Shown: positions 40,441-46,484 of the stretch, piece by piece
How positions within the stretch are numbered: position 1 is the first letter of the stretch
Layout of the letters: every line of letters begins with the position of its first letter
Source of the DNA: Dinochytrium kinnereticum
Taxonomy: Eukaryota; Chytridiomycota; Chytridiomycetes; Chytridiales; Chytridiaceae
Reading direction: 5' to 3'
Assembly: GCA_027604005.1 (NCBI GenBank)
Contig: JADGJT010000048.1
Span: forward strand, 1-64,000
DNA length: 64,000 nt
The notes under the pieces: generated by a model
Databases searched by the model: none
Seen by the model: the letters and a program-made list of their open reading frames with translations, nothing else
What the model was told of the DNA's origin: nothing
Made by a program: the position numbers and the translations under genes

Positions 40441-42700
40441 ATGCGGGAATCCTGGGCCGTCATGAGGGCCGCATGCTTACTCCTCTACATTACCATTCTA
40501 GCGGGCTCATGCGAGGCCACGCATCCTCCTCTAGGATACGTTGTAAGGCAACCGAAAAGTTTGGTCAAAAGGCAGTCATGGCTCAAGAAGCGAAGTGCAC
40601 CAGTCCCTCCGAGCATGCGGATGGGACCTCAGAATATGGATCGAGCGTCAGCGCCTACATCGACGGAATCGTCTTCCCAGCCCACTGGATTGCAATTGAT
40701 GAGGCAAGCGGCGTCTGATGGTGTTTGCACTGCAGGGCTGGAGAATCAGTTCATTTGTTACGGCCCTTCTACACTGAGGAGGTGTTTAGCCAGTGGTAAG
40801 GAGATTCGCTACATATCTGAGCAATTGATATCGACCTGAGCTGATTTTCCTGATGGCATTGAGTGGAGCGGCTAACACACCATTTCTGTTGTTGCTAGGT
40901 CCGGTTGATTTCGCATGCCCTCCCGCAACGTTTTGCTGTCTTAAGGATGGCGTCCCGGGCTGTCGGCATGGTGCCGACTGTGGGATCCCCTCTGTTCCGT
41001 CTAATCCCGAACCGAATCCTCTCCCTGCACCTCTACCCAGCCCAAACGATCCTCCGGTGGAAGCACCGGTCCCAGCATCACCAGCTGATCCTCCTTCTGC
41101 GCCGGTAACCGAATCGCCATACCCTCCCCCACCACCAACGCAGGTTGCTCCAGAGCAGCCTAATGTGCCGACCCCAACACCCACTTATCAATCTCCGCAG
41201 TCGACTGTGCCGTCGGTGCCCCCAAGATATGGCTACTGCGACGGGGCGTCCCCCGTTCGCATAGGATACGTGGCTTCATGGTGAGTTGACACAGTTCTGC
41301 TTGCGCCTTCAAGTTGAGGGTTGTAGATGAGATTATAACATGCATCCTGTGACTCACGACGCTGGTTTCAAACCTTTAAAATATTGCAGGGCTCAGTATC
41401 GAGAAGGAGGATGCAGCTTTAACCCGGCCAAGATAGACGCAAAAAAGTGGAACTACCTGTTCTATGCGTTTGCTCAGATTGATGCTGTGACATCTGCACT
41501 TGTCTTTCCCGAGGAGGAGTCGCCATACCTTGCTCAAGTCGCCGAGTCCACTGTCCCAATGGTACTCTCGGTGGGTGGATGGGGTCACCATCTGAACTTT
41601 GCCCCGGTCGCGGCGGATCCGAGACGACAGCAGGTGTTTTCGGACTCACTTTTGGCGCTGATGGCTCGTTATGGATTCGTTGGGATTGATATTGTGAGCG
41701 TTTCGGTTATTTTGCTTACTCGAGAGCTCTTCTCCTGTTTTGAAAGTAAGGCAAAAATACTAATTCTCGTTTTGTATAGGATTGGGAGTTCCCAACAGAA
41801 GAGGAGAAACAAAACTTTGGGACTTGGCTTGCGCAGCTTCGAGGTGCGCTGGGACCTGAGCGGATTATTGCGGTCTCGGTCCCTCTGACGCCCACTGTGT
41901 TTCAGTATCCAATAGATGCGATTGCAGCCTATGCTGACTTTACGAATTTGGTATGGTTTTCCTTACACTTTAAGAATCTCATTATCCTTTTCCGAAACTT
42001 CCCCCTAACATAATATTCTATTTCGAAAAGATGGGATACGATGAGAACGGCGACTGGAGCCCTGTATCGGGACCAAATTCAGGCAACACGGCGATTGGCA
42101 ACACCATCTCCGGAATTCTCGAAACTGGTTTCCCATCAAGGAAGCTCATCCTCGGGATGGCTCTTTACGGTCGGTCCTTCCGGTTGACGACGGAACCCGC
42201 TGCCACGCAACCAACACTGCCCACAACACCCACTCAGCCAACCCTTCCAGCTGAGTTAACCGTTGGCGCCAACAACCAGGCAGCCACCAACCCTGCTTGC
42301 CCGGGTTTGGGTTATGGGTGTCCGTTTTTGAAAGGCGCTGCTGTGCAGGGTCAGTGTAGCCGGTCCCCCGGATTGTTGTTTATGAATGAGATTTATACAC
42401 TGGCGGGGAGGCATGGGATTATGAGGGATGGGGCCACGGGGACTTCTTGGATTCTCACTCCTGCGAATGATTTGGTGACGTTTGACACTATAGAGGATTT
42501 TAGGTACGTGGCAGAAACCTTTTCTTTTCTTCTTGTTGATAATGGGTTTTCAATTTTCTCTTTGATTTCCTCGTCCCTTTATTCTAACCTAGACTTATAA
42601 CTGTAGGGTAAAAGATGCCATGGCTGCTGAGAAATGTTTGGGCGGAGCTTTCATGTGGTCCCTTGATCAGGACCCTGACCAGATGTCCATTCCTTGGTGA
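40441..42700 (+). CDS. Secreted GH18 chitinase with N-terminal Cys-rich module
   Basis: About seven exons; start MRESWAVMRAACLLLYITIL (signal peptide) at 40441, stop TGA at 42698. Layout: signal peptide; Ser/Thr-rich spacer; an eight-Cys module (DGVCTAGLENQFICYG ... CPPATFCCLKDGVPGC) like fungal chitin-binding modules of the CBM19 sort; Pro-rich linker (40985-41220); GH18 barrel with IGYVASW (strand 1), NYLFYAFA (strand 2), MVLSVGGWG (SxGG), FVGIDI-DWEFP (the DxxDxDxE strand, split by an intron near 41694-41778), MGYD (MxYD) and ILGMALYGRSF, ending CLGGAFMWSLDQD. The catalytic Glu and the two nearer Asp are present, but the first Asp of DxxDxDxE is Val. It hydrolyses chitin or remodels the cell wall. 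Confidence 0.9.
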
Positions 42701-43551: not shown

Positions 43552-46484
43552 TCAGTCGTCTTCCTCCTCAGCTGTTTGGAACCACTCAATGAGCGGTTCA
43601 CACCTCTTCTTAACTCCCTCGCTGATGACTGAGCCTTGGCACCACCTCATAAAGGAGTCCTCCTCCACAAGATCAGCATCGTACAAGCTCTTGAAGACCA
43701 CTGCGGCCTTTTTGAGGAGCCCAGCGCTTCGCTGCATAGCCTTATCCCAGGCTTTTAGAAAGGCGATCTGATCGGACGCCGACCGAATGTACTAAAAGGA
43801 TGAGGCAAAAAAGGAGGATTAGATGGCAAAGAAGGACAAATTTAAAATACTGACCTGCTGGAAAAACTTGACCCTAGCCTGGAACTTGGCCACGGTGAAA
43901 TCATCATCGAAAAGCGAAGGAAGGAGCACATTGAAGAGTTGCTGCTTGGTCAAATCATGCTTGAACTCGATCCTCGTAATCTCCTTCGTTTCCTCTGTGA
44001 TCGTCCTCCCACCCTCCGGGGCTGACTTGAAGTATTTGAAAAGCTCTGTGACGAGGGTTTCCTCTAGCTTTGAGTACTTTGCCGTTGGGACCGACGAGGT
44101 GGCTGGGAGAGAGGAAGGCGTTGTTGCGGGGCTCCCACCGCTTGTGGCAGAGGCGTCAACGGAGGCGGGAGTGAGAGCTGGGGAGCCGGTTATTGAAGAA
44201 GGGTTTGCGGGGCCAGTGTCTGAAGTGCCTTGGCTGTGAATTTTCATTTTGATGTTAGATGCATGAAACGTACCGAGATCTTTAGATCAATGACAAAGAA
44301 GGGAGGGACCAATGAACCAACGATGAGTAATATTGCTTACGTCACGTTCATAGGAGCGTCAATCTCCACTACCCTGAGGTTCTTCTTTCCCGTCTGACAG
44401 AAAAAGCGAGGAGACAGCGATAATCATCATCGAATGAAAATGGCACCGGAGGAATAGAATTATAAAAGCAAATAATTAGAGGTAATTCCAAAAGCTTAAC
44501 AACAAAACACAGAGCTTACCTTATCCCTATCATTCATGAGATCCTTCAAAGAAATGTTATCATTCTTCTTCCCTCCAGCCTTAACAACCTTCACCGCCCC
44601 ATTCAAAGCGCCAGGTGGCAGCGGGTTCGACACAGTAGTATGGGACGGTCCCTCGTCCTTAGCCTCATCAGTTTGAGCAACAAAAGCAACAGGGGTGGGA
44701 CGAGTCCTAAGCTCCTCGGGGGAATGAGCAAAGTTGCAACGAGGACCGTACTGACAGAAATTCTCTTTCACGAATCGTTCACAGAGACGGGTCTTGTAGA
44801 GAGGATTTTCGGGGCCCTCGTTCTTTTGGTCCTGTTCGCCACCAAAGGTTGCGCGATCACGGAGCTCGGGCTATTAGAGATGATCAGATTGTGTCAAGTG
44901 GGTTTCTTTAGGAAAGACATTCGTCTTGTCCAAATTCGACAAAGAAAATAAAAAGCTCAAAAAAACGAGAGAATAAACCCTACCGTTCCGTGAGCAAAAG
45001 TACATCTTGAACCGTAAGGACAGGCGCCCTCGGTCTCAAACCTCTCACAAAGTCTCGTCTTGTAAAGAGGGTTATCGGCTACCGAACCCCCAGCCTCATC
45101 ACCCTTCCCACCCCCATAAGCAGCAGCAGCCGCAATCTGAGCAGGAGTAACTACGGCCCCAGTCCTCCAATTAACTTTTGACCCATTGGGAGCAAACACC
45201 AATCTCCTCTCCACACTCTTTTCAGAGGCACCAGCGAGGGGCCCGCCACCCCGTGAGACAACGTTCCCATCTTCACCAATTGATAGCGACATTGATCTTC
45301 CTCCATTCTTGCTGGCACCATTTGAAGGCGTAGCGCCTCCAACCCCTGCAACGCCGTAAGAGGCCTGGCTGCCGCGCCCTCCTGTAGGATGATCCCGGCG
45401 ACCTCTTCCAACCGTCGGTTCATCCAGTTCGTCATTACCGGCACGGCCTCTATGACCATTAGCATTACGGCGACGGTCGCTTCCTGCCGACCCGGGGTTA
45501 CGTCTGTCGCCTGAAGCCTGACTCGTCATATGCTGGCCTTGCGGACCCTGGGACTTGTCCATGCTGTTTGGCGACGCGCTTAAGCCAGGTAGTGAGCCTT
45601 GACGGACTACCGATGGCATGAGAGCGGGAGCACGTGTTTTGAGCTCTTCGATGTAGGTGTTGGCCTGGCGAAGAGCGTCTTGCATGTTTTTGTACATAAC
45701 TTTGTCAATTGCCTGGGTTTCAAATGATTGAGTCAGCGTTTATGAAGAAGACTCATTAACAAGGAGGGAATGGCGATGCCGTTCTGGCCGATATCTAACC
45801 TGTTGAAGGGGAAGCCATGCCATGTTTAACCCAACAAGGCCGCTGGGAATAATCCGCTCGCGAGAGGCGATGGAAGCCACAAAGAAAGCTACATGTTTAG
45901 GGGTAGTTCCTGACAAGTACTATCGACAAAAGTAATGTATGTATCAGTGAGGATTTTAAAATCCAGACGAAATAGCCGAAATAAGAGCATGTGCTTTCAT
46001 ATCAAAAAATAAACACCTTAATTTCGATACGGAAAGATGAGTCAGAGATGAGAATGCTTTTTGCGGAAAGACCGGTGATGTTGATTATTTCTCGGAGGGC
46101 ACACCTTGAAAGAAGAGGTGCTTGGTTTAAATATTTGATTGTCGAAGACGAAAAAAGGATTTGTATAAAAGAAGTAGATGACTCACTTGACCTCGTCTTC
46201 GTTTCCAATAACTTTTCCTTTGGGGGGAGCCCAATGGCGTTTACCGGAAAATGAGTCGTTTATTAAATAAAACTCGGTGGATCGCTTCCAAACGCATTAG
46301 GATTACATTCAAAAAAATAAAACAAAATTTGGAGAAAGCGTATTGTAAACTCACCTGGATCCGATACAAAATAATACCTGCAGGCAAAAATGGTCATTCG
46401 TGATTAGCTTAAGAGTCAAATCAAAAATGAAGAACGAAGCTCGGGATGTTAGAGTTACTCACCAGCATATCTTCCACCCTCCAT
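43552..46484 (-). CDS. Nudix (degenerate) - CCCH - CCCH - W2/eIF5C fusion protein
   Basis: Spliced from MEGGRYAGIILYRIQ (ATG at 46482-46484; a 23-nt micro-exon near 46376) to the stop at 43552. Residues about 5-145 match the NUDT2-type Nudix fold: KRHWAPPKGKV, then YLSGTTPKHVAFF, MAWLPLQQAIDK and ALRQANTYIEEL. The Nudix box ends REIINITGL, so the two metal-binding Glu of REUxEExGU are Asn and Ile. A disordered Gly/Arg/Ser region follows, then two TTP-style fingers (C-x8-C-x5-C-x3-H) each led by LYKTRLCERF (about 45070-44990 and 44795-44720). After a linker, a W2/eIF5C domain has KYSKLEETLV, FLKAWDKAM, EEDSFMRWC and the acidic end PLIEWFQTAEEEDD. The splice phases of all the Nudix joints agree. 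CCCH fingers bind AU-rich RNA and W2 binds eIF2beta/eIF3-type partners, so a translational regulator is inferred. Confidence 0.88.

Follow-up and report, generated by a model that had tools for sequence, protein, structure and literature searches.

The locus described here raised the question of whether a fungus joins a Nudix fold, two CCCH fingers and a W2 domain in one polypeptide, and what such a protein might do. It lies in a stretch of 64,000 nt of Dinochytrium kinnereticum DNA (the window). The fusion is real, is apparently old and has already been catalogued.

A single spliced gene for three modules

The coding region of 10 exons (Table 1) kept an unbroken frame across nine introns, all of them GT-AG (9/9), and a TGA stood in frame immediately 5' of the ATG. 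The 700-aa product was collinear, end to end, with its aligned relative from Phlyctochytrium planicorne (P0002). Six of the introns, with lengths that are not multiples of three, would break the frame if retained; introns 5, 7 and 9, which are multiples of three, would bring in 1, 4 and 2 in-frame stops, respectively, if read through. All nine introns are therefore required.

An acceptor at 46272 was dropped for one 12 nt upstream, at 46284, which gives back the RSTE present in P. planicorne. The abandoned 696-aa model was the query of the Pfam scan, the PDB comparison and the first protein database search.

Table 1. Positions of the gene and its features in the window
Feature	Position	Strand	Remarks
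Whole coding region, 10 exons	43552..46484	-	700 aa, stop included in last exon
Exons 1-3	46484-46463, 46377-46355, 46284-46187	-
Exons 4-6	46104-46017, 45919-45800, 45712-44984	-
Exons 7-10	44870-44520, 44393-44341, 44233-43855, 43791-43552	-
NUDT2-type Nudix domain, aa 1-144	45632..46484	-	Exons 1-5, first part of exon 6
Degenerate Nudix box, aa 38-60	46068..46218	-	Split by intron 46186-46105
CCCH finger 1 (CX8CX5CX3H), aa 339-358	44990..45049	-	Lead-in LYKTRLC; Pfam, TTP/TIS11d match
CCCH finger 2, aa 390-409	44724..44783	-	Lead-in LYKTRLC; 31 residues past finger 1; Pfam
HEAT/W2 domain (eIF5C type), aa 550-700	43555..44070	-	Pfam W2 part about 43773-43555

The domain search suggested in an earlier note on this DNA found zf-CCCH twice (2.7e-19) and W2 (4.1e-14) above the Pfam cut-off. 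The NUDIX match (E 0.0022, 18.4 bits) fell under its cut-off of 21.1 bits here and exceeded it in relatives (P0002, 27.7; P0013, 32.5; P0070, 27.8 bits).

Identity between the D. kinnereticum and P. planicorne proteins was 123/144 (85%) in the Nudix part, 27/31 and 30/34 in the finger regions and 107/149 in HEAT/W2, and dropped to 55/156 and 36/100 (35-36%) in the two long linkers. Chance domain matches were ruled out by this concentration of conservation in the three modules. In particular, the Nudix match is not due to chance, because the 85% identity extends over 144 aa.

The earlier note had read these modules in this order from a spliced model at 46484-43552, and both coordinates and order were correct. 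Its more detailed assignments also held: the Nudix part as NUDT2-like (NUDT2 was matched in the PDB at E 4.7e-12), the two CX8CX5CX3H fingers with TTP-style lead-ins, and the acidic/aromatic end of W2.

One chain versus two genes

Finger 1 is encoded in the same exon (exon 6) as the final helix of the Nudix fold, with no stop between them. The same chain was found in P0013, P0016, P0018, P0019 and P0029, whose ORFs almost fill contigs of 2.0-2.5 kb. Examples from the jgi/lgn source were 673 aa on 2022 bases and 678 aa on 2180 bases; contigs barely longer than the ORF would fit spliced transcripts. A single chain, as against two transcripts, was thus backed by exon 6 and by the chains of other species, that is, by comparison rather than by RNA.

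The best database match, HDU67_007560 of D. kinnereticum (P0001, 578 aa), was 100% identical over the common part. It starts with MYKNMQ, at an internal Met of exon 6, and lacks 122 residues that make up almost all of the Nudix domain. Judged by sequence comparison, it is a wrongly begun gene model.

Two genes, or a truncated protein starting inside exon 6 as P0001 does, are very improbable and were rejected: such a start would leave only the final helix of the Nudix fold; exons 1-5 keep the frame and, together with the beginning of exon 6, show 85% identity to P0002; and other species have complete chains.

Distribution and history of the family

The family alignment had 108 rows, 107 database proteins and the D. 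kinnereticum protein (P0078 was left out); the rows are not independent, P0001 being the same gene and several genera having been sampled many times. By coverage rules, the Nudix domain, two fingers and W2 were all present in 84 of the 108, so that the architecture recurs in other early-diverging fungi, where the earlier note had proposed to look for it. The remaining rows were without the Nudix domain alone (10), W2 alone (7), both (4), the second finger by pattern (2), or the Nudix domain and second finger (1). Some of the incomplete rows are marked partial, and P0001 is the wrongly begun one.

Named members came from chytrids, Quaeritorhiza, Glomeromycota, Mucoromycota, Mortierellomycota, Coemansia and Dispira, with the phyla assigned by us. 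Several matches of the word-limited searches came without an organism name; all the named ones were fungal except P0078, an algal protein with CCCH and ankyrin and without Nudix or W2. No Dikarya occurred among the named matches of searches limited to candidates sharing 5-letter words, which may miss relatives in Dikarya, Blastocladiomycota or animals. With the family in several early-diverging lineages and no Dikarya so named, model yeasts may never have revealed it.

The first database search scored the 7994 candidates that had the most words in common with the query and matched 78. Searching with the Nudix region of P0010 matched 57 of 193 candidates; by our reading of the output, every one had zf-CCCH and 55 had Pfam NUDIX. 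The W2 region of P0002 matched 4 of 379, all family members.

A rapid tree built from 58 selected rows, midpoint-rooted and without bootstraps, grouped them by phylum, with five changes for six groups, the minimum possible. Glomeromycota, Mucoromycota, Mortierellomycota and Kickxello/Zoopagomycota were each confined to one side of a branch. Chytridiomycota took two changes, since the lone Monoblepharidomycete row falls among them. The long Dispira and Coemansia branches were flagged as a possible false joining. Because the tree follows the fungal phyla, the fusion seems to be old and to have been passed down vertically in early-diverging fungi.

Two short conserved stretches were seen outside the modules. 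The residues LVFAPNGSK (aa 288-296), in an otherwise variable linker, were near-identical in Dinochytrium, Phlyctochytrium and Quaeritorhiza. A motif near aa 484-488, between finger 2 and HEAT, often W-M-x-V-V-E-L, was found by pattern in 47/108 rows and is a possible partner-binding peptide.

Loss of metal ligands and retention of ligand-site residues in the Nudix domain

The Nudix fold was backed by the predicted structure of the P. planicorne relative. The Foldseek and VIA lists held chiefly Nudix chains; eIF5 was absent among the matches listed, so these were uninformative on W2.

Family positions are named after their equivalents in the C. elegans Ap4A hydrolase (E55, E56, Y76). The D. 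kinnereticum box reads REIINITGL, not a complete metal-binding REUxEE, and its residues N56 and I57 occupy the positions equivalent to E55 and E56. The E56 equivalent, the second Glu of EE, was Glu or Asp in 0/90 rows with an ungapped box (the other 18 of the 108 are without one). Where all four acidic positions were aligned (91 rows), 38 lacked just one and 53 lacked two or three; D. kinnereticum has lost three. Singly, the E55 equivalent was E or D in 83/93 rows and the E103 equivalent in 67/98, and the glutamates of GX5E and RE were kept in 89/89 and 62/93.

Three residues that we take to be substrate contacts in the C. elegans enzyme, K36, K83 and H31, had their equivalents kept in 87/89, 95/97 and 79/87 rows. 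By eye, K81 was not retained (T in D. kinnereticum, often R in relatives). The equivalent of Y76, the tyrosine for ApnA specificity (PMC5389931), was kept in 93/94.

The importance of the missing glutamate is indicated by DHNTPase, in which the second Glu of EE (Glu60) is a ligand of two metals; the three metal glutamates of that enzyme are reported to superpose on those of Ap4A hydrolase (PMC5526541). NUDT21/CFIm25, whose box is given as RLX2EIXGR (PMC5389931), has the Glu-to-Ile change at the same place as the D. kinnereticum protein. It binds RNA, and also Ap4A at the RNA site with a Kd of 2.4 uM (PMC4856261). On the other hand, NUDT21 belongs to PF13869 and is mostly single-domain, without CCCH or W2, and PF13869 was not among the Pfam matches of the D. 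kinnereticum protein at E up to 1.

Since the E56 equivalent is lost family-wide, whereas nearly all rows retain two of the lysines and the tyrosine for specificity, the comparison suggests a pseudo-Nudix binding domain in the fashion of NUDT21/CFIm25, and the Nudix part of the family is probably not a working hydrolase. Hydrolysis may persist in some species, because 38/91 rows lack only one acidic position. The family shares with NUDT2, the asymmetrical Ap4A hydrolase, its fold (as modelled for P0002) and the specificity tyrosine, and differs from it in its four catalytic acidic residues, of which between one and three are absent, and in the fusion to CCCH and W2. The name 'bis(5'-nucleosyl)-tetraphosphatase' carried by some family genes in databases is probably wrong, and the family cautions against such hydrolase names.

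The CCCH fingers

The PDB comparison of the D. kinnereticum protein matched TTP and TIS11d. As in TTP/ZFP36/TIS11d, there are two CX8CX5CX3H fingers with YKTxLC lead-ins. By pattern, two fingers were present in 105/108 rows, and both YKT lead-ins in 64/108 (custom pattern).

The TTP spacing of 18 residues between the fingers, as counted for TIS11d in 1rgo, was not found in D. kinnereticum, where the spacer is 31; it ranged from 25 to 119 across the 105 rows. TTP-like binding of a single continuous AU-rich site is doubtful, because the spacer is long and the lead-ins match in only 64/108. By analogy with TTP, the individual fingers are likely to bind in its manner, and AU-rich RNA would be their target.

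The HEAT/W2 domain

The eight best PDB matches to W2 were all eIF5 (C-terminal domain), and no 5MP chain was among the PDB matches to this part. Against the other fetched loci of the genome, the family W2 profile gave 44.8 bits with 5MP, 23.9 with L005 and 19.7 with eIF2B-epsilon, a comparison that took in no eIF5 W2, the genome's eIF5 having been recognized by its N-terminal domain PF01873 (C149). The genome's own 5MP (L001, on C45) carries PF25504.

The acidic/aromatic C-terminus was present in D. kinnereticum and, by pattern, in 90/108 rows; a crude pattern found acidic box 1 in 52/108. In its C-terminal HEAT/W2 domain with this end, the protein resembles 5MP/BZW and eIF5. By Pfam, it is without the HEAT domain PF25504 of 5MP and without the N-terminal PF01873 of eIF5. 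The 5MPs of several kingdoms are reported to bind eIF2 and to inhibit it (PMC4176352). By analogy, the W2 domain would contact eIF2 and eIF3.

Two further W2-like stretches were seen in the genome, each adjoining a long acidic ORF. One (L005 1423-1827, on C97) scored 29.5 against a 30-bit cut-off; the other (L004 1294-2136, on C28) scored 33.8 bits in one scan and was absent from a second. Pfam found no second domain of eIF5, 5MP or eIF2B-epsilon in either.

Previous description of the family

The earlier note knew of no described protein with this order of domains. That claim did not stand, and the family already has a name: Pasterny et al. 2025 (PMC12210691) described a fungal NUDIX 'subfamily A' of 84 proteins, 100% fungal, distantly related to NUDT2, most members having W2 and zf-CCCH. 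Within the literature covered, in which subscription papers were thinly represented, this was the sole description of the combination found. The D. kinnereticum protein also has a NUDT2-related Nudix domain, zf-CCCH and W2 in one chain, and by the domain content described, its family is almost certainly subfamily A.

According to the same paper, 51% of the residues of subfamily A are disordered, and the members are expressed in Glomero-, Mortierello- and Mucoromycota. They were treated as enzymes with a well-preserved box, into which Ap3A/Ap4A were docked, and every new subfamily was credited with at least two metal glutamates. The text sections on subfamily A give no domain order, no mechanism and no proposed function, and the terms 'inactive', 'pseudoenzyme' and 'translation initiation' are absent from the main text. 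The box motifs are set side by side in Fig. 4A of the paper, where the same Glu substitution may be visible. What is new here is the correction of the gene model and the finding that a metal ligand is lost throughout the family although residues of the ligand site are retained.

Proposed function and alternatives

The sequence and the model gave a NUDT2-type fold without one metal Glu, two TTP-like fingers carried on flexible linkers, and a HEAT/W2 domain that resembles those of eIF5/5MP and has an acidic/aromatic end. From these three separate resemblances we infer a mechanism. Our tentative preference is for a vertically inherited, single-chain, mRNA-tethered initiation regulator of the eIF5/5MP kind. 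The fingers would hold AU-rich mRNAs, and W2 would contact eIF2-beta and eIF3 and compete with eIF5, as 5MP does; this competition would lower or re-tune initiation on the finger-bound mRNAs. The Nudix domain would bind its ligand (RNA, Ap4A or a cap-like dinucleotide) without cutting it, and might thereby sense stress or position the protein on the message.

The earlier note had proposed a 'one-piece mRNA-to-initiation regulator'. The one-chain architecture was upheld and a regulator role fits the evidence, but the Nudix part is probably not a working hydrolase.

The Nudix domain might instead be a plain platform for RNA or protein, as in NUDT21 or, we presume, TIRR, with no nucleotide signal, leaving only an mRNA-bound initiation regulator. 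NUDT21 shares the Glu-to-Ile change and binds RNA, and the strong conservation of the Nudix part (85%, against 35-36% in the linkers) though catalysis looks lost would fit a platform. The ApnA tyrosine and two lysines, however, were kept in 98-99% of rows, seemingly beyond the needs of a scaffold, and we consider a plain platform somewhat unlikely.

Rather doubtful, too, is a W2 domain that acts as an activator, recruiting eIF2/eIF3 to the bound mRNAs, and not as an eIF5 competitor. eIF4G2/DAP5, which has a W2 domain, is described as promoting initiation on chosen mRNAs, and the retained acidic/aromatic C-terminus would suit such a role. This is opposed by the inhibition of eIF2 reported for 5MPs (PMC4176352).

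Also unlikely is a Nudix domain that has stayed catalytic and hydrolyses Ap3A/Ap4A (or caps), with the fingers and W2 delivering it to mRNAs or initiation complexes. Fold and specificity tyrosine are retained, as are the GX5E glutamate in every row scored and the RE, E55 and E103 positions in many. The docking published in PMC12210691 points the same way, as does the opinion stated there that two or more metal glutamates persist. Against this, the E56 equivalent was non-acidic in 90/90 ungapped boxes, and of the four acidic positions 53/91 rows had lost two or three, D. kinnereticum three.

Returning to the non-cutting Nudix domain in the regulator that we prefer, it could be a receptor rather than an enzyme. 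It would then provide a testable translation effector for the long-debated alarmone Ap4A and for dinucleotide caps, and show a route for placing an eIF5 mimic on chosen mRNAs. Ap4A is a product of aminoacyl-tRNA synthetases that often forms under stress. An alarmone-to-translation switch, in which the inactive Nudix domain as Ap4A receptor alters the grip of the TTP-like fingers on AU-rich mRNAs or of W2, as an eIF5 mimic, on eIF2 and so lowers initiation on chosen messages, is quite unlikely; if true, it would be a fungal effector linking Ap4A directly to initiation.

Related and neighbouring loci

A stretch of the C. elegans Ap4A hydrolase found no match in the D. kinnereticum genome; it missed even the Nudix-CCCH-W2 gene and is therefore uninformative. 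Searching with the Nudix part of the D. kinnereticum protein recovered four exons of its own gene and, on C516, a single weak stretch. Among the fetched loci, the family Nudix profile matched outside the gene only there (L021, C516:376-477; 22.0 bits), and the stretch adjoining this exon presumably resembles DCP2.

PF09830, which we take to be the Ap4A phosphorylase domain, and HIT domains were found elsewhere in the genome. Removal of Ap4A therefore need not depend on the Nudix-CCCH-W2 gene.

On C154 (L006, 26474-26786), two CCCH matches lie close by, one of them the top zf-CCCH score of the genome; this is perhaps a separate TTP-like protein.

In the window, a glycoside hydrolase family 18 (chitinase-like) gene of at least two pieces lies at 41331-42600 on the + strand. 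It is convergent with the Nudix-CCCH-W2 gene, and its end is about 1 kb away.
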